64,000 nucleotides of DNA from an uncultured Candidatus Actinomarina sp. (lineage in GTDB: Bacteria; Actinomycetota; Acidimicrobiia; Actinomarinales; Actinomarinaceae), in assembly GCA_902619825.1 (NCBI GenBank), contig CACNFT010000001.1:199529-263528 (forward strand), given 5' to 3'. A program made the translations under genes and the position numbers. The notes beneath the pieces were generated by a model that did not search any database, was not told the DNA's origin, and worked only from the letters and a program-made list of their open reading frames with translations. Shown piece by piece: positions 41,049 through 64,000 of the stretch; the first letter of the stretch is position 1, and each line of letters begins with the position of its first letter.

Positions 41049-42083
41049 TTATAGTTTTTTGGCCTCAATACAGTAAAAACCTCCTAAACCACGATCATTA
41101 TGTATTGCCTCTAACCCAACAATATCTGATTTTAATTTAAGTTGGTCTACGCCATAAGTTTCTACAAATTGGTTTTTTAAACTTGAATAAATTTCCTGAT
41201 AACCATATTTATCAAGAAATTCATATTGTTTCATAATCTTGTATTCAAAATTATTTTCTTCAAAATATTGTTTTAAAAAGGAAAAATTTACATCGTACGT
41301 GATATCGGTCTCCGTAGGCATTTCTATTGGATCACTTGAAAGATGGTGTTCTTTATAAGTTCTAATTAATGATTTATATGGTTTTAGATTTCTCTCTTCG
41401 TATTCGAATCCATAATCAAAAATTAGTAGATGATTTGGGTCAACTTTTTTGATGAGTTCGTCTAAAAATTGTTCTGTATTGTATTGAATTTCAAGCTCAT
41501 TATCTTGGTTATCTAAAAAATTATATTTTTTAATCCATTTAAGATTTGATTCACGCATTTCTACTTTTCCATATCTAAGTTCATTATCTTTTGTAAATTC
41601 AATTGTTTTTTCATACCAAGTATTGTCTACTTCTATACCGACAGAACAAGGTATATTATCTAACACTTCATTCATATAAATAGTTTTTATCTGAGATGAA
41701 CCATAGTTATCTAAATTGCTATCAACCAAAAAATTTTTACTTTTAAGTGCTTTTAGGGCATTTAACGAAATTTCGGAAACATAGATTTCTTTTTCAAGAT
41801 ACTTTGACACCTGATTCGCAAGTGAACCTGTTCCTGCACCAACTTCAAGTATATTTGAATCGCTATTGATTCTATTTTCTTTAATCCAATTTGAAATAAA
41901 TAATCCAAAATAATTAGATACTTCTGGTGAGGTTAGAAAATCACCAGATTTACTGGAGCGGACTTCGCCCTTTGCAAAAAATCCATAATCAGAATAAAGA
42001 CATTCCTGCATGAATTCATCAAAGTATAAATAGTTTTTACTGTATTTATTTTTGAGATAATCAATAAATTTTTTTTCTACCAC
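41049..42083 (-). CDS. MidA/NDUFAF7-like SAM-dependent methyltransferase
   Basis: 344 residues. YLYFDEFMQECLYSDYGFF and the SGDFLTSPEVSNYFG block are hallmarks of the COG1565/NDUFAF7 family; SAM site ILEVGAGTGSLA at about 79-90. NDUFAF7 methylates an arginine of the 49-kDa complex I subunit (NuoD homologue) in mitochondria. Here the gene follows nuoN by 4 bases, in the nuo operon, which supports a complex I assembly role. Confidence 0.85.
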   Translation of the reverse strand: MVEKKFIDYLKNKYSKNYLYFDEFMQECLYSDYGFFAKGEVRSSKSGDFLTSPEVSNYFGLFISNWIKENRINSDSNILEVGAGTGSLANQVSKYLEKEIYVSEISLNALKALKSKNFLVDSNLDNYGSSQIKTIYMNEVLDNIPCSVGIEVDNTWYEKTIEFTKDNELRYGKVEMRESNLKWIKKYNFLDNQDNELEIQYNTEQFLDELIKKVDPNHLLIFDYGFEYEERNLKPYKSLIRTYKEHHLSSDPIEMPTETDITYDVNFSFLKQYFEENNFEYKIMKQYEFLDKYGYQEIYSSLKNQFVETYGVDQLKLKSDIVGLEAIHNDRGLGGFYCIEAKKL

Positions 42084-42087
42084 TTAA

Positions 42088-43569
42088 TTAGCTATTAAAA
42101 AATATTGATGAAGCTTCACCTAGATTGCTGAATATGCCTGGAAAAATTCCAGAGACAATTGTCAAAATTAAACTTACAAAACCAACAACTTTGAGTGGGC
42201 TTGGGATGATTGAATTTTCAGTCTTTTGAACATCTTCTTTTGGACTATCCATCCATATAATTTTTGAAATTCTTGAATAATACACCAAACCTATCACAGC
42301 ATTAATAGCACCAACTATAGCTAGAGATAATCCAAAAATTTCACCTGTGCTTAGTAAGCTTCTGAAAACTACAAATTTTGCAAACCATCCTCCAAGAGGC
42401 GGAATCCCTGCAAGAGAGAAGAAAAATATTACTGCAAAGATTCCTGCTAATGGTGTTTCTTTTGCAAGACCTCCCCAGTCATACATATTTTCTGAGTCAA
42501 TATTTCTTTGTAACAAATTAATCACTAAAAATGCACCTATATTCATAAATGCATAAATAATTAGATACGTAACACTTGCATAAACACCATCTTCAAAATT
42601 ATTTGTTATGTTTGCAACAGCTATCGGCGCAAGAATAAACCCTGCCTGTGCAATCGATGAATATGCCAGAAGTCTTACTGGATTTGTTTGTTGTAAAGCT
42701 GATAAATTACCAACAAACATTGTTATTCCAGAAATGAATACAAGTACTATCCCTAATCCATCTCCAGATTCAAAAAATATTTTTGACATCAAAATAATTA
42801 ATGCAACAAAGCCAGTCGCTTTGGAGCTAACAGATAGATAAGCCGTTACTGGTAAAGGTGCTCCTTCATAAGTATCAGGTGCCCAAGAGTGAAATGGAAC
42901 AATTGATATCTTGAAGCCTATACCCGCCAAAATAAGTATTGCGCTTAGTAAAGCAACAGGTGATTGGGCAAGATCTTGCTGAATTAAAATATTAGCTATA
43001 TCTGAAAAAACTAGCTTTCCAGTTACTCCATAAAGTAGTGAAAAGCCATAAAGAATTAAAGATGCTGATAGTACTCCCAGTAAAAAGAATTTAATTGAAC
43101 CTTCATTTGATTTTTGATCGCCTTTTTTCCAGCCAGATAAAAGAAACATTGGCGTTGAAGCTAATTCAATTCCAATAAACATTGTTAGTAAATCTCTTGA
43201 AGAGGTTACCACTAATGCTCCAAGCAGAGAACTTAACAGAAGAAAATAATATTCTCCCTGGTAATATTCATCACTTTCCACAAAATTTACGGACAATAAA
43301 AATGTCAGATACGTAACCAAGATAAATAGGCCTTTTAGAATCAAGGAAAATTTATCAATTACATAACTTCCCTCAAACATAATTTCTGGAGTTGTATAGT
43401 TGGCAAATTGAAAAATAATTGGGAGGAATGCAAATAGCGATCCAAGAATTGATACCATTGCAATGATGAATTTAAATTTTCTTGGTAAAAGTATATCTAA
43501 TGTTATAGCAGCCACAATCGTTAGGATTACTATTAATTCACTTGATATAGCGAAATAATTAATATTAAT
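42088..43569 (-). CDS. nuoN: NADH-quinone oxidoreductase subunit N, probable ATT start
   Basis: 493 residues if translation begins at an ATT at 43569, which lies 6 bases after a GGAGG embedded in the last codons of nuoM. The frame is open from there and encodes INYFAISSELIVILTIVAA, completing the first membrane helix. The nearest canonical start, GTG at 43515, would cut this helix and has no Shine-Dalgarno. Antiporter-like subunit with about 14 membrane segments; conserved SLAGIPPLGGWFAKF near the C-terminus. It pumps protons. Confidence 0.93.
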   Translation of the reverse strand: MNINYFAISSELIVILTIVAAITLDILLPRKFKFIIAMVSILGSLFAFLPIIFQFANYTTPEIMFEGSYVIDKFSLILKGLFILVTYLTFLLSVNFVESDEYYQGEYYFLLLSSLLGALVVTSSRDLLTMFIGIELASTPMFLLSGWKKGDQKSNEGSIKFFLLGVLSASLILYGFSLLYGVTGKLVFSDIANILIQQDLAQSPVALLSAILILAGIGFKISIVPFHSWAPDTYEGAPLPVTAYLSVSSKATGFVALIILMSKIFFESGDGLGIVLVFISGITMFVGNLSALQQTNPVRLLAYSSIAQAGFILAPIAVANITNNFEDGVYASVTYLIIYAFMNIGAFLVINLLQRNIDSENMYDWGGLAKETPLAGIFAVIFFFSLAGIPPLGGWFAKFVVFRSLLSTGEIFGLSLAIVGAINAVIGLVYYSRISKIIWMDSPKEDVQKTENSIIPSPLKVVGFVSLILTIVSGIFPGIFSNLGEASSIFFNS

Positions 43570-43571
43570 TT

Positions 43572-45149
43572 TTAGCCTCCGAACGCTTTAGATACCAAAG
43601 CAATAACTGCATCATTAGTTGCTCCAAATATAAGTTTTGGAAATACTCCTATCAGAACAGTGAGTATTACTAAAGGTATCCAAGCAACAAGTTCATAATT
43701 GTCTGCATCATGAAGCTCTTTATCTAACCATTCTTCTTTAGGTTCACCAAGATTAACTCTTTGAAGCATCCATAGTAGATAACCTGCTGTTAAAACAGTT
43801 CCAATTGCACCTGCAACCATGGAGGATCTAAAAATTGTAATATTTAAACCAGGTAATGGATTATATGCTCCAAGGAGAGCCATAAATTCTCCCCAAAATC
43901 CTGCCAATCCAGGTAAGCCAAGTGACGCCATAGCTGTAAAAGCTAAAATAGCTCCAGTCTTTGGAAGAAGTTTCATATTTCCACCTAATCTTCCCATGTC
44001 TCTAGTGTGATAAGTATGTGCCATAGAACCAGAAACAAAGAATAATAAACCAGTAATTATTCCGTGGGCAACCATTCCAATCATTGCAGCATTAATACCT
44101 ATTGAGGTTAGTGAAGATATTCCAAGCATTACAAAGCCCATATGTCCTACTGAAGAAAATGCAATCAATCTTTTAAGGTCTGTTTGTGCCAAGCAAGCAA
44201 GAGAGCCGTATATTATTCCAATTGCTGATAGCACTGCAATAGCTGGAGCCCAAGCAACAGCCTGTTCTGGAAGAATAGGTAAAGCAATTCTTACAAAACC
44301 ATAGGATCCAAGTTTTAATAAAATTGCAGCTAATAAAACAGATCCAACAGTTGGTGCAGCTGTGTGTGCATCAGGCAACCATGTATGTAGTGGCCACATT
44401 GGTACTTTTACTGCAAAACCCAAGAATAAAACAGCAAAAACTAACGTTGCAAATGTACCTGTGAATGCTCCACTAGAACCAAGCTCAATTAGTTCGGGAA
44501 TACTAAATGTTCTATTTCCCCTGAAATATAAACCTAGGAATCCTAAGAGCATGAAAGCAGATCCAAATAAAGTAAATACAAAAAACTTAATACTTGCATA
44601 AAGTCTTGTTTCAATATCATTCTTAAGTCCAGAAACACTTCTGACAGTTTTATCTCCCCAAATACCAATCATGAAATACATTGGTAGTAAAACAAGTTCA
44701 AAGAACACAAAAAATAAAATTAGATCTAATGCCACAAATGTACCATTCATTCCAGTTTCTAAAATTAAAATCAAAGACATCATTCCTTTTGCATTTTTTG
44801 GTTCAGGTAAATGTTCAAAAGAATAAATAATTGCTAATACAGAAATGAAAGTAGATAAAAGTAATAAAGGTAAAGAAATACCATCTATACCTATTTCATA
44901 ATTTGAATTAATACTACTAATCCATGAGACCTTAGTACCAAGCTGAAGGTCACCGGCATTATAAAAATCAAATTGCAAGGCAACAATTAAACTTACTCCA
45001 AAAGTAAGAAGTGCAGATCCAAGAGTTACTAATTTAATTAGCATCTCTTGTTTCTTAGGTATTAAGAATATAAAAATTGCAGATACAAGCGGAAGAAAAA
45101 CTACTATGGTTAAACCTAATCCACTCTCCAAAAAAGAAAAACTACTCAA
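43572..45149 (-). CDS. nuoM: NADH-quinone oxidoreductase subunit M
   Basis: 525 residues, about 14 membrane segments. FAVKVPMWPLHTWLPDAHTAAPTVGSVLLA and SVGHMGFVMLGI are the antiporter-subunit signatures, with the conserved Glu (FFFELVLLPMYFMIG) and Lys residues in place. Its last codons (AFGG) form the Shine-Dalgarno for nuoN. Confidence 0.97.
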   Translation of the reverse strand: MSSFSFLESGLGLTIVVFLPLVSAIFIFLIPKKQEMLIKLVTLGSALLTFGVSLIVALQFDFYNAGDLQLGTKVSWISSINSNYEIGIDGISLPLLLLSTFISVLAIIYSFEHLPEPKNAKGMMSLILILETGMNGTFVALDLILFFVFFELVLLPMYFMIGIWGDKTVRSVSGLKNDIETRLYASIKFFVFTLFGSAFMLLGFLGLYFRGNRTFSIPELIELGSSGAFTGTFATLVFAVLFLGFAVKVPMWPLHTWLPDAHTAAPTVGSVLLAAILLKLGSYGFVRIALPILPEQAVAWAPAIAVLSAIGIIYGSLACLAQTDLKRLIAFSSVGHMGFVMLGISSLTSIGINAAMIGMVAHGIITGLLFFVSGSMAHTYHTRDMGRLGGNMKLLPKTGAILAFTAMASLGLPGLAGFWGEFMALLGAYNPLPGLNITIFRSSMVAGAIGTVLTAGYLLWMLQRVNLGEPKEEWLDKELHDADNYELVAWIPLVILTVLIGVFPKLIFGATNDAVIALVSKAFGG

Positions 45150-45163
45150 TATTTACCACTCTC

Positions 45164-47182
45164 TCATAACACTAACAAAATTATTAAGCTAATAACTATC
45201 ACTCCTATTAAAAAATACATTAAGTATTGTTGAGTTTTACCAGTTTGAATTAATTTGACTTTACTACCAATAGTGTCTGTACCTGTTGAGGATAAATTAA
45301 GTACCTTGTCAATACCTCCTTGGTCAAGATTTGTATATACAATTCCTCCTGCTTTTGAAGCAGTTGTCCCAACACCATTAACAAACCGATCAAGGACATT
45401 TGAATTAAATGAGTCAACAAATTTAGCAAAAGTTATTTTTACTGGATCAATTATGAATTTGAAGTAGAAAAAATCTAAGTAGTATTTATTTTCCAATAAA
45501 TTCCATATTGGTTTTATTTTAATTTTTTCATCGCCGTCAGTTGCATTTCCTGACATTTGATAGACGTAGTAGGCAAGTCCAATACCCAAAAGTCCGGATG
45601 TAAGACCACTGAACATAGCAACCAAATCAAATGATTCAGGATGATATTCTACAATGTAATTTTTCCTGGTTGTAACCCATTTTGTAAATCCTGTATAAAC
45701 ACCAGGTATGTTTGCCCATCCTGCAACAATGGCAAAGCCTGATAATATTATCAAAGGAATTGTCATCATTTTGTCAGATTCGTGAGGGTGTCCATCACCC
45801 CGATAGTCACCAAAAAATGTTAAAAGAACTGCTCTTGTCATATAAAACGCAGTGATAAAGGCTCCAAGAACTGAAATAATAAAATATAAATTATGCCCTT
45901 CATGATTGAGTGATGCGAGTATTTCATCTTTTGAGAAGAATCCAGCTAATGGAGGAAGTCCAGCAAGAGCTACAGTTCCAATAATGAAGGTTGAAAATGT
46001 TCTGGGCATTTCTTTCCTTAGGCCACCCATTTCAGACATGTTATTTGTGTGCACTGCATGAATTACCGAGCCAGCACCTAAAAATAATAAAGCTTTAAAA
46101 AATGCATGAGTCCATAAGTGAAAAAGACCCGCAGTGTATGCACCTGAACCCATTGCCGTAACCATGTAACCAAGTTGACTTACTGTTGAATATGCAAGAA
46201 CTTTTTTGAGATCATCCTGAACTACAGCAACTAATCCTGCTCCAAGAAGTGTTATTACTCCAAATAAAAGAACTATATCTAAGGCTTGTGAAGCCATTCC
46301 TTGGTAGAAAGGAAACATGCGGCCAAGAAGATAGACACCCGCGGTGACCATAGTTGCTGCATGCATTAGAGCAGATACTGGTGTTGGTCCTGCCATTGCA
46401 TCAGGTAACCATACATGAAGTGGAAATTGGGCACTCTTTCCCATTGCACCTATAAACAGAAGTACTCCACCTAAATATGCTACGGTTTTGATATCTGCAT
46501 AATCATGAGTTGATTGATACAATATCTCAGAAATTCTCAAGGTTTTTGTTGATAATGCAAGAACAATGATTCCAATCATTAACCCAACATCAGCAATTTT
46601 ATTAGTTATAAATGCTTTCATCGCTGCGGAAGAATTTTCCTTTTTTTCCCAGTAATGACCAATTAGTAGATAAGAACAAACTCCAACTAATTCCCAACCA
46701 ATCAACAATTGCAAAAGTGTTGGAGAAGAGACTAAAACTAACATACTCCCAGCAAATAATGTGAGTGATGTAAAAAAGAAAGTATATCTTATTTCACCTT
46801 GCATATAATTTGTTGCATATATAAAAACTAAAGATGAAACAGTACCAACTACGAAGTACATCATAATTGACAATCCATCTACGACCCAGCCAAACTCAAG
46901 ATCATAAGAACCAATACTTCCTACGTTGATAAAAAATTCATTGGCGATTCCTTTTGTCGCATGCTCATAAAGTAAAGCTGCGCTATATGAAAATATGAAT
47001 AAAACTGTTCCTAAAGCAAGCTCTGCACCTTGTAATGGGAGATATTTTCCAAAAAAAGTAATCAAAATTGCAGCTAAAAAAGGAAGTACAACAATCAACC
47101 AAGTAAATTCAGCGAGTACACCGCCATCAGTATATTCTGGCTTACCTTCAGCGAGTAAATTTATAAAATTCTGATTCACCAT
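45164..47182 (-). CDS. nuoL: NADH-quinone oxidoreductase subunit L
   Basis: 672 residues. QLLIGWELVGVCSYLLIGHYW, AQFPLHVWLPDAMAGPTPVSALMHAATMV and STVSQLGYM identify NuoL, the distal proton pump with the long lateral helix in its C-terminal region. Overlaps nuoK by 7 bases. Confidence 0.97.
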   Translation of the reverse strand: MVNQNFINLLAEGKPEYTDGGVLAEFTWLIVVLPFLAAILITFFGKYLPLQGAELALGTVLFIFSYSAALLYEHATKGIANEFFINVGSIGSYDLEFGWVVDGLSIMMYFVVGTVSSLVFIYATNYMQGEIRYTFFFTSLTLFAGSMLVLVSSPTLLQLLIGWELVGVCSYLLIGHYWEKKENSSAAMKAFITNKIADVGLMIGIIVLALSTKTLRISEILYQSTHDYADIKTVAYLGGVLLFIGAMGKSAQFPLHVWLPDAMAGPTPVSALMHAATMVTAGVYLLGRMFPFYQGMASQALDIVLLFGVITLLGAGLVAVVQDDLKKVLAYSTVSQLGYMVTAMGSGAYTAGLFHLWTHAFFKALLFLGAGSVIHAVHTNNMSEMGGLRKEMPRTFSTFIIGTVALAGLPPLAGFFSKDEILASLNHEGHNLYFIISVLGAFITAFYMTRAVLLTFFGDYRGDGHPHESDKMMTIPLIILSGFAIVAGWANIPGVYTGFTKWVTTRKNYIVEYHPESFDLVAMFSGLTSGLLGIGLAYYVYQMSGNATDGDEKIKIKPIWNLLENKYYLDFFYFKFIIDPVKITFAKFVDSFNSNVLDRFVNGVGTTASKAGGIVYTNLDQGGIDKVLNLSSTGTDTIGSKVKLIQTGKTQQYLMYFLIGVIVISLIILLVL

Positions 47183-47481
47183 TTCATTAAATCAAATTCA
47201 TTAATATTGGCTGTTTCTCGATTTCTGAAAAGCATTAGAACAATAGCTAATCCAATACCAACTTCTGCTGCTGCAATTGTGATAATAAATATTGAAAAAA
47301 TCTGGCCATTTAAAAAAACATCTGAAAGCATAGCATTGAATGCAACAAAATTTATATTTACTGAATTGAGAATCAGCTCAATTGAAAGTAAAACCATTAC
47401 TGCGTTTCTTCTGACAAGAATTCCATAGATACCTATCGAGAACAAAGCTGCTGCTGCAATTAGTAATGGTTGAATGCTCAT
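47176..47481 (-). CDS. nuoK: NADH-quinone oxidoreductase subunit K
   Basis: 101 residues, three membrane helices. GILVRRNAVMVLLSIELILNSVN with the conserved membrane glutamate, then a second Glu in AAAEVGIGLAI. MrpC-like subunit. ATGA overlap with nuoJ. Confidence 0.97.
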   Translation of the reverse strand: MSIQPLLIAAAALFSIGIYGILVRRNAVMVLLSIELILNSVNINFVAFNAMLSDVFLNGQIFSIFIITIAAAEVGIGLAIVLMLFRNRETANINEFDLMKW

Positions 47482-47996
47482 ATTTGGTCTTCGTCCATTA
47501 ATGCATTATCTTTTCTCGCTAGTGTAATGCCACCAATTAAAGCTCCCAACAAAACAAATGAAACTAGCTCAAAAGGAAAGACAAATCTACTCAGTAAAAT
47601 TTCTCCTAATAATTTAGTAGATGTTCCTTCACTAATAACAACTGTAGAGTCAAATGTTTGTAGAAGAATATATGTAAATATTCCAAAAATTGATAGCGAT
47701 ATAACAGCAGCCAATAATTTATTTTGATCATTATCTAGCTCAGCGTTTGGACCTAAAGGAGCCCTTGTGATCATCACACCAAATAAAAACAGAACAATAA
47801 CTGCTCCTATATATACAAGTATTAGGACTAAAGCTACAAATTCAGCGGATAATAATATAAATAAAACAGCAGTAGTAGCAAGAGTAAAAACTAAAAATAT
47901 TGCAGCGTGTATAACATTTGATGTGGTGACAACTTTTACTCCGCTTAGTAAGAGTAACAGCAAAAGAAAATATGAAAATATGTCTATTGCTTCCAT
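47478..47996 (-). CDS. nuoJ: NADH-quinone oxidoreductase subunit J
   Basis: 172 residues, five membrane helices. SNVIHAAIFLVFTLATTAVLFILL and LVYIGAVIVLFLFGVMI, the second containing the conserved pi-bulge tyrosine region of helix 3. One-base overlap with nuoI. Confidence 0.97.
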   Translation of the reverse strand: MEAIDIFSYFLLLLLLLSGVKVVTTSNVIHAAIFLVFTLATTAVLFILLSAEFVALVLILVYIGAVIVLFLFGVMITRAPLGPNAELDNDQNKLLAAVISLSIFGIFTYILLQTFDSTVVISEGTSTKLLGEILLSRFVFPFELVSFVLLGALIGGITLARKDNALMDEDQI

Positions 47997-48481
47997 CAGC
48001 TCTCTAAACCTGGACCTTCAGGAACAGTCTTTAACCATTCGTCAAGCCTGTCTTTGTCATGGAGCATATCTCCCATAGAAAATTCTGAATATTCGTATTC
48101 CGGTGACCAGAATAATGCATCAAATGGGCATACTTCAACACATATTCCACAATACATACAAAGTGCATAATCAATATCAAATCGATCGAGTACTGCTCTA
48201 CTTCTCTGACGTCCTCCTGGTTTTGAGGGAGGTTGTAGTTCTTTGTGACCCTCTATGTAAATACACCAGTCAGGACAAGATCTTGCACACAACATGCAAC
48301 TTGTACATGCTTCAGAATCTAAAGCAATGACACCTCTAGTTCTGGGTGCGAGTATTTCTTTTTCAAAAGGATAATTAACATTAGGATTTTCAAAAAAAGG
48401 AAGAAGGGTTTTAAACATATTGCCAATAACAATTTTTAGTCCAGTTAAAAATCCAGGAATCCTTGGTTTGAATTTTTGCAT
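47996..48481 (-). CDS. nuoI: NADH-quinone oxidoreductase subunit I (2x[4Fe-4S])
   Basis: 161 residues from the ATG at 48481 (MQKFKPRIPGFLTGLK), which overlaps the nuoH TAA as TAATG. An open frame extends 38 codons further into nuoH but is not NuoI-like. Two CxxCxxCxxxC motifs (CTSCMLCARSC and CMYCGICVEVC) hold clusters N6a and N6b. Confidence 0.97.
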   Translation of the reverse strand: MQKFKPRIPGFLTGLKIVIGNMFKTLLPFFENPNVNYPFEKEILAPRTRGVIALDSEACTSCMLCARSCPDWCIYIEGHKELQPPSKPGGRQRSRAVLDRFDIDYALCMYCGICVEVCPFDALFWSPEYEYSEFSMGDMLHDKDRLDEWLKTVPEGPGLES

Positions 48482-49461
48482 TAAAAAACAACTTTCATGA
48501 TTGCTGTAGCCATTATATTCAATAGAGATAGAGGTATAAGGACTTTCCAAGCAAGAGTCTGAAGTTGATCCTCCCTGAATCGTGGAAAAGACCATCTGAT
48601 AGCAATGAGGATAAATGCTAGTAAAAATGTCTTTCCAATTAGAACCAATGGACCATAAAAATTAACCCATTCTGTCGGTAAAAGTGGAACATGATAACCC
48701 CCTAAAAAAAGCGTTGAGGCAATCGCACACATTACAAATAAATTTATGTATTCAGAAATATAAAAAATAAGAAATCTAATCCCAGAATATTCTGTAAAAA
48801 AGCCCATAGTTAATTCTGATTCTCCAATTGGCATATCAAAAGGTGTTCTCATCATTTCAGCAGTTGCAGCAATCATAAAAATAATAAAAGCAATACCCTG
48901 TCCTGCTATTACAAAAGGAAACCCAAATTCAATCTGTTTTTCAACTATTCCAACTGTTGACATTGTTTCAGCTTGTATAACGACACCGACTACAGATAAA
49001 ATTAGTGGCAATTCATATGCAATAAGTTGTCCTGCTGCTCTCAAGCCACCCATTAGGGAAAATTTGTTTGCAGAGGACCACCCAGCGGTAAGGACTCCGA
49101 TTGTGGAGATCGAGCTGATTGCAAGTAAAAAGAAAACACCCAGTTCCAGATCACGAACAATTAATGTGGGACTTAATGGAATAATTGTGAATAGACCTAC
49201 TACCGCAGCTATAACCCAAGCTGGCGCCCATTTAAATACAGGCTCATCAACATCATTTGGGATGATTGTTTCCTTTTGTAAATATTTTGCAGCTGTTGCT
49301 AGTGGAAATATAAATCCTCTTAAACCAACATGAAGAGGACCTGGTCTCCTTTGCATCCAGGCAGAACCTTTAACCTCTAGCAATGTAAGTCCCAAAGCCA
49401 TAACTGGAGCTGTAGCTAAAACAACTAAAACTTTGATAAGTAACTCGGTACTAAAACTCAT
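48481..49461 (-). CDS. nuoH: NADH-quinone oxidoreductase subunit H
   Basis: 326 residues, about eight membrane helices. MQRRPGPLHVGLRG and ELPLILSVVG with FDMPIGESELTMGFFTEYSG, the acidic quinone-chamber loop. It forms the quinone site with NuoB and NuoD. Here nuoD is directly upstream, with no nuoEFG in between. Confidence 0.97.
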   Translation of the reverse strand: MSFSTELLIKVLVVLATAPVMALGLTLLEVKGSAWMQRRPGPLHVGLRGFIFPLATAAKYLQKETIIPNDVDEPVFKWAPAWVIAAVVGLFTIIPLSPTLIVRDLELGVFFLLAISSISTIGVLTAGWSSANKFSLMGGLRAAGQLIAYELPLILSVVGVVIQAETMSTVGIVEKQIEFGFPFVIAGQGIAFIIFMIAATAEMMRTPFDMPIGESELTMGFFTEYSGIRFLIFYISEYINLFVMCAIASTLFLGGYHVPLLPTEWVNFYGPLVLIGKTFLLAFILIAIRWSFPRFREDQLQTLAWKVLIPLSLLNIMATAIMKVVF

Positions 49462-50654
49462 CTGTCTACATCTCCAAGAACAAAATCTAAGCTACCCATT
49501 ATTGCTATCAAATCAGGAAGCAAGGCCCCCTCAAGCATGATTGGTAAAATTGAAATGTTACTAAATGAAGCTGTTCTTATTTTTAATCTATATGGTCCTA
49601 AACCACCTTCAGAAATAATGTAATATCCCATTTCACCCTTTGGATTTTCTGCTCTTACATATGTTTGTCCTTTAGGAACTTTTATAACTTTTGGTACCTT
49701 TGCTTGGATTGGTCCAGAAGGCATATCATCAATTGCTTGTAAAATAATTTTTGCAGATTCTCTCATTTCGGATGTTCTTACAGACCATCTGTCAAAACAA
49801 TCACCATTTTCACCTATTGGAATTTCAAAATCAAATTTGTCATATGGTAAGTAATTTGATTGTTTTCTCAAATCAAACTCAACACCTGATGCTCTCAATA
49901 TTGGACCAGATACTCCATACTCTTCGGCTACTTCTTTTGGTAATACACCAACATTCTTTGTTCTAATTTGAAATACTTCATTTCCACCTATTAAATCTTC
50001 AAATCTATCAACAGCTTCAAGAACTTTTTGCATTGCAACTTTGGTATCGTGATAAAAACCTGCTGGTAAATCCTGTATGTCTTTTTTTGTTGTTGGCCCA
50101 GCACCTGCGGCAGGTTTTACTCCACCGATTCGATTAAAGTTTGGATGAAACCTTCCACCGGTAACTGATTCAAGCAAATCAAGAACCCTTTCTCGATCTT
50201 CCATAGCTAAAAATATAGGTGTAAGCGCACCAATCTCAAGCGGGAAGGCACCATTAAAAACAAAGTGTGAACTTATTCTTGCCATTTCAGTCAAAATCAG
50301 TCTGATGTATTGTGCTCTTTCAGGTACTTCTATTTCCATTAATTTTTCTGCACCAGCGATAAATGGAATCTCATTCGCAAAACCTGAAACCCAGTCAATT
50401 CTATTTACTAATGTTGTTACTTGAGGATAAGTTCTGACCTCTGCAAGCTTCTCATATCCTCTATGCATATATCCAAGTACAGGTTCAACACTGGATATTT
50501 TTTCGCCATTAATTTTAGCTACTAACCTCAAAACACCGTGAGTCGATGGATGTTGAGGACCAATATTTAAAGTCATATCTTCTGTTTCTATTTCAACAGA
50601 AACTGATGCTTCAGATAAAATTGGCATATTGTTTGGATCCATTGTTTGAGCCAT
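49458..50654 (-). CDS. nuoD: NADH-quinone oxidoreductase subunit D
   Basis: 398 residues. NIGPQHPSTHGVLRLV with the quinone-site histidines, the GYMHRGYEKLAE loop (the region whose Arg is methylated by NDUFAF7 in mitochondria), and GGRFHPNFNRIGG. C-terminus ends DFVLGDVDR, the NiFe-hydrogenase-like end. Overlaps nuoH by 4 bases. Confidence 0.97.
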   Translation of the reverse strand: MAQTMDPNNMPILSEASVSVEIETEDMTLNIGPQHPSTHGVLRLVAKINGEKISSVEPVLGYMHRGYEKLAEVRTYPQVTTLVNRIDWVSGFANEIPFIAGAEKLMEIEVPERAQYIRLILTEMARISSHFVFNGAFPLEIGALTPIFLAMEDRERVLDLLESVTGGRFHPNFNRIGGVKPAAGAGPTTKKDIQDLPAGFYHDTKVAMQKVLEAVDRFEDLIGGNEVFQIRTKNVGVLPKEVAEEYGVSGPILRASGVEFDLRKQSNYLPYDKFDFEIPIGENGDCFDRWSVRTSEMRESAKIILQAIDDMPSGPIQAKVPKVIKVPKGQTYVRAENPKGEMGYYIISEGGLGPYRLKIRTASFSNISILPIMLEGALLPDLIAIMGSLDFVLGDVDR

Positions 50655-51214
50655 TAGCTGCCCTCTTCTGAGACTACGATGTTATCTTCTGGCATACCTT
50701 CTACATCAACATCACCTGGCCAAGGTTTAACTTCCCTACTTATCAACTCAAATGATTTGAGTAGAGGATTTCCTTCATAAGCATCAGGAAGATAGAGTTT
50801 CTTTAAATTTGGATGGTTCAAGAAATTAATACCAAACATTTCATAAGCTTCTCTTTCATGCCAGTTCGCTCCACCAAAAACTTCAACTAATGAATCAATC
50901 TGCGGATCCTCTTTTGAAATCTTTGTAGATGATATGACTAAGTCATCAGAATTTGTTTTTGATAAACAACTTATTATTTCAAAACTTGGGGTTACTGGTT
51001 CTTTTGGTGCGTCACCAATTTTTACATCGTTATCCCAGTCAACAGCAGATAGCCAATTAAAAAATTTTAAGTTAAATTCTGCTTTCAATGTTTTATGCGT
51101 ATCAATCCAAGAATGAGAATCTACTTCAATTTTTAATGTATCAAATTCAACTGATGAATTTTGAAATTTACTTTGAATTGAATTTACGAATTCGTTTTGA
51201 TCAGACTGGTTCAA
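50654..51214 (-). CDS. nuoC: NADH-quinone oxidoreductase subunit C
   Basis: 186 residues. [10 protein letters not shown], then [31 protein letters not shown], the NuoC signature, and a C-terminal acidic tail. It is a separate protein, not fused to NuoD. Overlaps nuoB by 14 bases. Confidence 0.97.
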
Positions 51215-51698
51215 TGTCTTTCTCTCTCCACTTTTCTTTCATATCTTCACCTTTTATTTTTTTCTGTAATAAAACTATTCCCTCTTGCAAAGCTTCCGGT
51301 CTTGGTGGGCATCCGGGAACATAAACGTCTACTGGAATTAATTGATCTACTCCTTTTGTGACAGAGTAAGAATCCCAATACGGTCCCCCACTGTTTGAAC
51401 ATGAACCCATTGAAATTACATACTTTGGTTCCGGCATTTGATCATATAATCTTTTAACTGCTGGGGCCATTTTGTCGGTCACGGTACCTGCAACTACCAT
51501 TAGGTCAGCTTGCCTTGGCGATGCAGGAAGTGGAATTATACCTAATCTCATAAAATCGTGTCTCGGCCCACTTGCTGCCATAACTTCAATGGCACAGCAT
51601 GCCAAACCAAATTGAAAATACCACATATCATATGCTCTTGCCCAATTCAATATTTTAGAAATAGGCTTGGGGATTCCAAACTTTTCAATTACTCCCAT
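51201..51698 (-). CDS. nuoB: NADH-quinone oxidoreductase subunit B ([4Fe-4S] N2)
   Basis: 165 residues. The N2 ligands are visible in [12 protein letters not shown] (tandem Cys), MGSCSNSGG and [11 protein letters not shown]. It passes electrons to quinone. 10-base overlap with nuoA. Confidence 0.97.
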
Positions 51699-52054
51699 TT
51701 GAGGACATCCTTTCTAATGGCATATATCAAACCAAGTAAGAGAATAAAAATAAAGATAAACATTTCAACCAAGCCAAAGTATCCAAGATTTTCTAGATTC
51801 AGTGCCCAAGGAAAAATAAATACTGCCTCAACGTCAAAAATTACAAATAATAAACCAAATATATAGTATCTAACATAAGTTTGGCTCCATCCCCCACCTA
51901 CTGGATCTACTCCACACTCGTATGTTTTAACTTTTTCTGGAGTTGGTTTTTTGGGACTAAGTAATGCAGATACAGATATAAAAACTAGAAACAAGACAAG
52001 TCCGAGACCTATCATTGCCCCAACAGTAACGTAATCCTGAAAATAAGAAATCAT
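51689..52054 (-). CDS. nuoA: NADH-quinone oxidoreductase subunit A
   Basis: 121 residues, three membrane helices, with the loop [13 protein letters not shown] containing the conserved cysteine and [12 protein letters not shown]. First gene of the nuo cluster, divergent from the phosphodiesterase gene across a 76-base gap in which no convincing promoter boxes were seen. Confidence 0.97.
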
Positions 52055-53290: not shown

Positions 53291-54115
53291 TTAGTTTGGT
53301 TGGTAAGTCCCAAAGAAGACTTGCCAGGCAAGAGCTGTCTTTGCTAATAAGCTAAGCCATATATATGCCCTCTCACCGTAAAGATAATCTTTCCATTTGC
53401 CTACACCTTTGTATTGGAGAACCATGTTTATTGAAAAAGTGTTAAAGAATAAAAATATACTTACAAAAATCCAGACAACAAACTGAGGTACACCTTGTGG
53501 GTTTGAATCTGTTGCAACACCATCCCCAATTAAATTAATAAATATGAAAATCCATGGTGCAACACCTACAAGACAACCCATAATGTAACTTGTCCAGTCT
53601 GCTTTTTCAGTATATTGATTGTTGACTTCCATCATCCACCCAAACCAACACATTGCAGCATTCATAAAAAATATACCAAGTAATGCCCAGATATCATAAA
53701 TTCCAACTAGTAAGGCAATTAAAACTATCATGACAGAAGCACTTATAGAGTATTCAATCCAACGAACTTTATTGATTCCTTTTCCAAGGTCTTCTTGGTA
53801 TTTTTCGTAAAATGGACCCGATATCAAAAAATGTGCAACTGCAGATGCTAACAAGAATGTTGCAACAGCAGGTCCAAAGTTTGTTACTTCTCTCCATATT
53901 TCTAGTTTTGGTACTAAAGCAAATGATGATGGATCATTTGGACTGCCCTCTCCGACCAATTGTGTAAGAGTTATTGGGACTACAAAATCGGAATTTACTA
54001 CAGTTCCTAACCAAAATAATGCTGATCCTTGGACGAGGTGCATAAAGCCCATAATGATATTAAAACGCCTTAATTTTCGGATTTTTTCAGATATCAAATT
54101 TCCCCCCTTTGACAC
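53291..54115 (-). CDS. Heliorhodopsin
   Basis: 274 residues, seven membrane segments. Family residues are all present: H26 (MHLVQ), H95 (AHFLIS), counterion E121 in RWIEYSISASVMI, the GVAPWI motif, and the retinal lysine K259 in LLAKTALAWQVF. The N-terminus is expected in the cytoplasm, inverted relative to other rhodopsins. Known heliorhodopsins are slow-photocycle light sensors or transporters of uncertain function. The frame starts with GTG at 54115; TTG at 54097, with GGGGGG just upstream, is an equally plausible start. No retinal synthesis gene is in the window. Confidence 0.95.
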   Translation of the reverse strand: MSKGGNLISEKIRKLRRFNIIMGFMHLVQGSALFWLGTVVNSDFVVPITLTQLVGEGSPNDPSSFALVPKLEIWREVTNFGPAVATFLLASAVAHFLISGPFYEKYQEDLGKGINKVRWIEYSISASVMIVLIALLVGIYDIWALLGIFFMNAAMCWFGWMMEVNNQYTEKADWTSYIMGCLVGVAPWIFIFINLIGDGVATDSNPQGVPQFVVWIFVSIFLFFNTFSINMVLQYKGVGKWKDYLYGERAYIWLSLLAKTALAWQVFFGTYQPN

Positions 54116-63402: not shown

Positions 63403-63543
63403 TTAGTCATTTTCGACATTATCGGAATTTTGTTTTTTTCTTAGCCATGTAAGTAAAAGAGCTGGAATTAAAAACATAAGCATCTCATCCCATCCGCCTT
63501 GATGATGAAAAACTGGTGGACTATTTGTAAAAATTAGGTTCAT
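63403..63543 (-). CDS. Hypothetical 46-residue protein coupled to the NuoN-like gene
   Basis: ATG at 63543 overlaps the TGA of the NuoN-like gene (ATGA). The protein runs MNLIFTNSPPVFHHQGGWDE, then one hydrophobic segment (MLMFLIPALLLTWL), then a charged tail RKKQNSDNVEND. The HHQGGWDE block at the membrane entry is distinctive. Not recognised. Tight coupling and membrane character suggest a small partner of the upstream subunit. Confidence 0.65.
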   Translation of the reverse strand: MNLIFTNSPPVFHHQGGWDEMLMFLIPALLLTWLRKKQNSDNVEND

Positions 63544-64000
63544 AGGTAACTCTGTACTACCCATCTTGAAATATTAATCAAAGAGCTAGGAACAAGGCCA
63601 AAAAATATTGTCATTGTTGCTAAAGAACTAATTAATAAATATTCTGATCTTTTTATTTTGAAATTCTCAACTGGTGTCTCTGTTTTTTCAATTGTTGCAA
63701 TCCAAATTGGTTTCAAATAGAAATAAAATCCAGCAACCGTTGACAGAAGAAGAATTGAAACTAAGAGATATTTTTGATAGGCCCATAAGTTAGTTAATAA
63801 AATAAATTTTGAGACAAATCCGCTCGTAAGTGGAATACCAGCCAAACCAAGCATAAAAGTACAAAATGTAACTGCGAGGAATTTATTGTTAATTATTAAT
63901 CCCTGAATGTCTTGAATGTTGAAATTAGATGACATTTTTCCATTGATAATTGAAAAGATTACAAAAATTCCAATTAACTGGATGATATAAGCAAAAAGAT
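63540..64000 (-). CDS. Second NuoN/antiporter-like subunit, C-terminal part (cut by window edge)
   Basis: 152 residues, open to the right edge. A first helix LFAYIIQLIGIFVIFSII, then FCTFMLGLAGIPLTSGFVSKFILL, the counterpart of SLAGIPPLGGWFAKF in NuoN, and two more hydrophobic segments. It differs clearly from the nuoN at 42-43.6 kb. It could be a second NuoN or an Mrp/Hyc-type antiporter subunit; the missing N-terminal part and upstream genes would decide. Confidence 0.8.
   Translation of the reverse strand, partial: LFAYIIQLIGIFVIFSIINGKMSSNFNIQDIQGLIINNKFLAVTFCTFMLGLAGIPLTSGFVSKFILLTNLWAYQKYLLVSILLLSTVAGFYFYLKPIWIATIEKTETPVENFKIKRSEYLLISSLATMTIFFGLVPSSLINISRWVVQSYL

Follow-up and report, generated by a model that had tools for sequence, protein, structure and literature searches.

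A Short Gene at the End of a nuo Operon

The gene analyzed here lies on the minus strand of a 64,000-nucleotide stretch of Candidatus Actinomarina DNA (the window) and comprises 46 codons, with the product MNLIFTNSPPVFHHQGGWDEMLMFLIPALLLTWLRKKQNSDNVEND (Table 1); the plus strand of the same interval is interrupted by stop codons. The 46-residue frame had been noticed in a first-pass annotation that gave no strand, and the HHQGGWDE block, the single membrane helix, the charged tail and the ATGA overlap described there were all recovered. An alternative in-frame ATG at 63564 would give a protein of 53 aa; because many relatives have no ATG or no open frame at this position, the overlapping ATG was taken as the conserved start.

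Table 1. Features of the small gene and its surroundings, in window coordinates.
Feature	Position	Strand	Basis
Gene for a 46-aa single-pass membrane protein	63403..63543	minus	ATG 63543-63541, stop 63405-63403; in frame in 30 genus genomes
ATGA overlap of small-gene start and nuoN stop	63540..63543	minus	Sequence; overlap or +3 spacing in 36/36 named relatives
HQGGWDE motif codons, residues 14-20	63484..63504	minus	Alignments A1 and A5; variants found by profile search
Hydrophobic core of the predicted helix, residues 21-34, with invariant Pro27	63442..63483	minus	AlphaFold2, hydropathy
Charged tail, residues 35-46, beginning RKK	63406..63441	minus	Sequence, alignment A5
3′ part of nuoN of the NADH-type nuo operon	63540..64000, runs past the window	minus	Pfam, NCBIfam, locus L002

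The upstream gene is nuoN. Its part inside the window matched Proton_antipo_M of Pfam (E 2e-13) and NDH_I_N of NCBIfam (E 1e-23), and the full gene (L002:1069-2541, minus strand) encodes a 490-aa NuoN. Upstream of the small gene in this locus, nuoA to nuoN, including EFG, were recognizable in order, and NuoF matched TIGR01959 over its full length with an E-value of 2e-166, yet below the curated cut-off of that family. The small gene closes a complete NADH-type nuo operon as its final cistron. The "second NuoN-like gene" of the first-pass annotation is thus indeed a NuoN, one that belongs to a full nuo operon, and what had been proposed to be an antiporter module is an ordinary NADH-type complex I. 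An Mrp-type Na+/H+ antiporter module as host is ruled out by the presence of nuoA to nuoN, EFG among them.

A second nuo cluster, of 11 genes and lacking E, F, and G, occupies 42088-52054 of the window. Directly after its nuoN, at 41049-42083 on the minus strand, a Methyltransf_28 protein is encoded (Pfam E 3e-23), which belongs to the family of MidA/NDUFAF7, a complex I assembly methyltransferase. Between both nuo clusters lies a heliorhodopsin gene (53291-54115, minus strand, Pfam E 1e-89), matching the arrangement reported for 'Candidatus Actinomarinales', in which heliorhodopsin separates two nuo clusters, one of them without EFG (PMC7771536).

Conservation of the Small Gene in the Genus

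The small gene was located directly after nuoN in all 30 same-genus genomes that carry it. Its frame is free of stops in every one of the 30 sequences, and each of the other five frames is stopped in 21-30 of them. Protein identity (80%) exceeded nucleotide identity (76%), the median pairwise dN/dS was 0.10, and the variable columns were distributed 15/8/30 over the three codon positions, that is, change falls mostly at third positions. The small gene is under purifying selection and is a real conserved coding gene, beyond what chance would produce. Among the 36 named Actinomarinales-type loci, its start relative to the nuoN stop was at −4 in nine, at −1 in 23, and at +3 in four.

Seven genus genomes gave no match to the small gene. 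In two of them a contig end truncates the nuoN of the NADH-type operon; in the other five the 3′ end of this nuoN is absent from the assembly. nuoF was found in six of the seven. Among the genus genomes checked, none clearly combined a complete nuoN with absence of the small gene.

A Family of Small Membrane Proteins With an HQGGWDE-Type Motif

The small protein and its relatives gave only sub-threshold noise against Pfam and NCBIfam, matching no family. A family profile built from 18 sequences detected the small gene in 127 of 296 Acidimicrobiia genomes, nearly always as a single copy, although this class-wide scan may overlook members where G+C content is high. At the level of the phylum, 33 of 297 genomes gave matches at E ≤ 0.01, about 18 of which were strong. 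A pattern-seeded scan of GTDB contigs confirmed 206 stretches, with Amycolatopsis and Actinokineospora among them. Family members are 45–60 aa long. Their N-terminus is short and leads into an HQGGWDE-type motif; the single helix that follows contains an invariant proline, and beyond it lie a basic stretch and a variable tail. This size, motif, proline-containing helix and basic tail were found in alignment A5 (48 rows), and the single copy in the class-wide search. The invariance of HQGGWDE in A5 is partly a product of the pattern that seeded the GTDB scan, and the profile matches vary the motif, with HYWGVDE, HYWGIDE, HQYGWDE, HQSGWDD, HDGGWDE, HAGGWDE, and others.

AlphaFold2 modeled the small protein as one helix spanning residues 18-44, with a pLDDT of about 93 in residues 21-40. 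Basic residues follow this helix and none precede it, which by the positive-inside rule suggests an N-out, C-in topology. A PDB profile search with the small protein returned nothing convincing, the best matches (E 0.17-0.2) being weak helix similarities. No description of the family and no paper printing its motif were found in the open-licence literature. We define it here as an unnamed family of HQGGWDE small membrane proteins and, with moderate confidence, place it among the small respiratory accessory proteins.

Several single loci deserve mention. In L235, a divergent small ORF (MTTIAHILGGGSTDEWVASGVVLIGLVWLLRRSERRARQRR...) overlaps an HGxGG gene (see below) and directly follows it, suggesting that the family is wider than the profile finds. 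In L202, the frame of the HQGGWDE protein continues into a zinc-ribbon and a thioredoxin-like lipoprotein, which may be a natural fusion or a merely open frame in G+C-rich DNA. Actinomarina-type or Acidimicrobiia-type loci were also met in contigs titled as Chloroflexi, Neomarinimicrobiota, and Bifidobacterium breve MAGs (L069, L071, L092, and L122), bins that look mislabelled or contaminated.

Gene Contexts Inside and Outside Actinomarinales

The first-pass annotation had coupled the gene to nuoN and held that a lack of conservation beside nuoN-like genes in relatives would speak against this. The coupling was found in 36/36 Actinomarinales-type loci, so that it stands within the order, but in none of 93 loci elsewhere (some of which come from the same genomes), and linkage to nuo therefore does not extend across the range of the family. 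Occurrence gave a similar picture: NuoF is present in 287 of the 296 class genomes vs. the 127 in which the small gene was detected by a scan that may overlook members in G+C-rich DNA, indicating that its product is not a general complex I subunit. As a heme-copper oxidase was likewise found in 278/296, both complexes are almost universal in the class, and presence or absence does not discriminate between complex I and oxidase as the partner.

Outside Actinomarinales, three kinds of neighborhood were observed. In many Acidimicrobiales the small gene is on its own: nfu (NifU) and meaB diverge from it on one side, murA converges on the other, and no respiratory gene is near. In 22 loci a gene for a membrane protein with an HGxGG motif lies directly upstream of the small gene, often itself preceded by a cupredoxin-like gene, and the genes overlap or nearly overlap; in L089 and L103 the cupredoxin gene is directly upstream of the small gene. 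These two arrangements are linked by L185, L186, and L191, in which the HGxGG gene separates the small gene from its nfu/meaB flank.

The third neighborhood is that of cytochrome c oxidase. In L182, a single strand carries the HGxGG gene, the small gene, ctaB (UbiA, E 1e-66), a gene for a thioredoxin-like lipoprotein, ctaC (COX2), and ctaD (COX1); in L205, ctaC and ctaD lie downstream of the small gene; and in L032, L033, L036, and L080, ctaG, cox3, and cox1 are on the other strand, 1–4 kb from it. With L181 and L207 included, the small gene is in or near oxidase operons in eight loci, none of them in the nfu–murA context or in Actinomarinales. A cox1 gene was within 6 kb of the small gene in 9 of 44 testable genomes vs. 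about 0.3 expected, from few lineages and mostly from one family.

The HGxGG Protein and Its Cupredoxin-Like Neighbor

The HGxGG protein is a multi-helix protein of about 410–430 aa with an N-terminal HGxGGRxDLPxP motif. It matched no Pfam family and, in a profile search, nothing in the PDB, and its AlphaFold2 model, built from five sequences, was poor (pLDDT 41). The cupredoxin-like lipoprotein carries HxHxYD and ExE motifs; its profile resembles the CuA domains of COX2 and nitrosocyanin (E about 1e-4), and no recognized copper family was matched in Pfam. The cupredoxin gene was directly upstream in 23 of 30 HGxGG loci, and the HGxGG and cupredoxin pair without the small gene is common in the phylum (58/297 genomes).

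In the class outside the genus, 35 genomes carried both the small gene and the HGxGG gene, 50 the small gene only, 32 the HGxGG gene only, and 137 neither, an association (odds ratio 3.0, p 3e-4) that is uncorrected for kinship and comes from a scan in which each G+C-rich genome had few candidates scored. When divergent small genes downstream of HGxGG were sought with a strict pattern detector, few turned up, and the antisense control itself gave one match; the HGxGG module therefore does not universally include the small gene as its third member.

The HGxGG protein is encoded in 39 of 42 Actinomarina genomes, including that of the window (G000, C7:1204-2412), which also encodes a heme-copper oxidase. 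In the latter genome (L228:506-2421) the HGxGG gene follows that of a Fur-family regulator and is divergent from the gene of a metal-binding ABC lipoprotein, with no oxidase genes beside it. A search of 34 same-genus relatives gave a cupredoxin of the same profile in 7, mostly within a few kb of the HGxGG gene; none was detected in the genome of the window. In one relative (L243:166-1752), a single open frame of 528 aa apparently joins a cupredoxin-like domain to a ZIP-like metal transporter.

Discussion

Reading function from gene neighborhood, we tentatively favor, over the alternatives below, the view that the small protein is an accessory or assembly protein of aerobic respiration, with older ties to an oxidase/cupredoxin module and co-expression with complex I in Actinomarinales. 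The gene product would be a single-pass inner-membrane protein, with the short N-terminus and HQGGWDE motif probably exposed on the outer side of that membrane and the basic tail on its cytoplasmic side, acting as an accessory or assembly factor for aerobic respiratory complexes. Its older association in Actinomycetota would be with a module of the cupredoxin-like lipoprotein and the HGxGGRxDLPxP multi-helix membrane protein; where this module lies inside a cytochrome c oxidase operon, as in some lineages, the small protein would most likely assist in assembling the oxidase or supplying its metal. Within Actinomarinales it is the nuo operon that the small gene would have joined as last, translationally coupled cistron, its product thereby being made together with complex I, and the HGxGG partner would be supplied from elsewhere in the genome. 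The oxidase/cupredoxin link is the wider, and probably the older, of the two associations, and complex I co-expression is specific to Actinomarinales. Against this account stand the 32 class genomes with the HGxGG gene and no detected small gene and the 50 with the reverse, the many Acidimicrobiales copies alone between nfu and murA, the cupredoxin that matches no recognized copper family of Pfam, and the Actinomarina HGxGG gene that adjoins a Fur-family regulator and an ABC lipoprotein rather than oxidase genes.

Three other explanations were weighed. That the ORF is spurious, or a leader-type peptide without protein function, might be thought of for merely 46 codons unnamed in the Pfam and NCBIfam libraries; it is scarcely credible and already refuted by conservation, given the low dN/dS, the frame kept in 30/30 genomes and the homologues that conserve the motif across families. 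A role dedicated to the NADH-type complex I of Actinomarinales, whether as accessory subunit or as assembly factor, with the protein packing on NuoN or NuoM at the distal end of the membrane arm, would fit the strict coupling to nuoN by translational overlap or near-overlap in all 36 loci, the strong conservation of motif and helix within the genus, and the absence of the assembled nuoN end, not of the small gene alone, in the genomes without a match. It is nevertheless rather unlikely, as none of the 93 loci beyond the order has a homologue beside nuo genes, nearly every genome of the class has complex I but far fewer the small gene, and no convincing complex I chain was matched in the PDB (best E 0.2). 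The small protein resembles the supernumerary small subunits of complex I in being a one-helix small protein made from the nuo operon, but differs from them in lacking a homologue among the complex I chains of the PDB or in the Pfam and NCBIfam families, in not being encoded beside nuo outside Actinomarinales, and in going undetected in most genomes with complex I.

The small protein may instead be a metal-handling partner of the cupredoxin-like and HGxGG proteins, not specific to respiration, whose gene came to lie after nuoN through a neutral relocation, gaining a steady promoter in this way. Such a role would agree with the wide spread of cupredoxin–HGxGG pairs, with the regulator and metal-binding lipoprotein adjoining the Actinomarina HGxGG gene and the cupredoxin nearby in some relatives, and with the copies standing alone beside nfu and murA. 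The oxidase operon contexts in several lineages and the strict retention after nuoN throughout the order argue against it, and we regard it as doubtful.

Compared with the known oxidase assembly proteins, namely Sco, PCuAC, Cox11-type CtaG, Caa3_CtaG, and CtaM (PMC9145763), the small protein differs in size and sequence. With CtaM/DUF420 and Cox11-type CtaG it shares a membrane anchor and, in some lineages, a gene in or near oxidase operons, and with Cox11-type CtaG also the single membrane pass and a predicted outward motif. However, at 45–60 aa it is far smaller than these, no sequence relation to them was found, and it has one helix where CtaM has 4–5 helices and Cox11-type CtaG a large outer domain (PMC9145763). 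The likeness to the Sco and PCuAC copper chaperones of CuA assembly is that cupredoxin-like lipoproteins and the thioredoxin-like lipoprotein of L182 sit in the same kind of operon (PMC9145763), which concerns the neighbors and not the small protein, and the cupredoxin-like protein has HxHxYD and ExE instead of the PCuAC pattern. A bolder proposal, which we consider quite improbable, sees in the HQGGWDE proteins a new class of tiny membrane proteins that face outward and bind metal. In Actinomycetota they would help, together with the cupredoxin and the HGxGG protein, in heme-copper oxidase assembly, and Actinomarinales would have put them to new use as a partner co-translated with complex I.

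The finding brings forward a conserved small-protein family that is absent from the protein libraries searched, and an uncharacterised pair of cupredoxin and HGxGG genes that extends into cytochrome c oxidase operons. Together they supply a handful of testable candidates for respiratory assembly factors in Actinomycetota, with the same trio present in cultured genera such as Amycolatopsis, and add an overlooked last cistron to the nuo operon of an abundant marine lineage of small actinobacteria.
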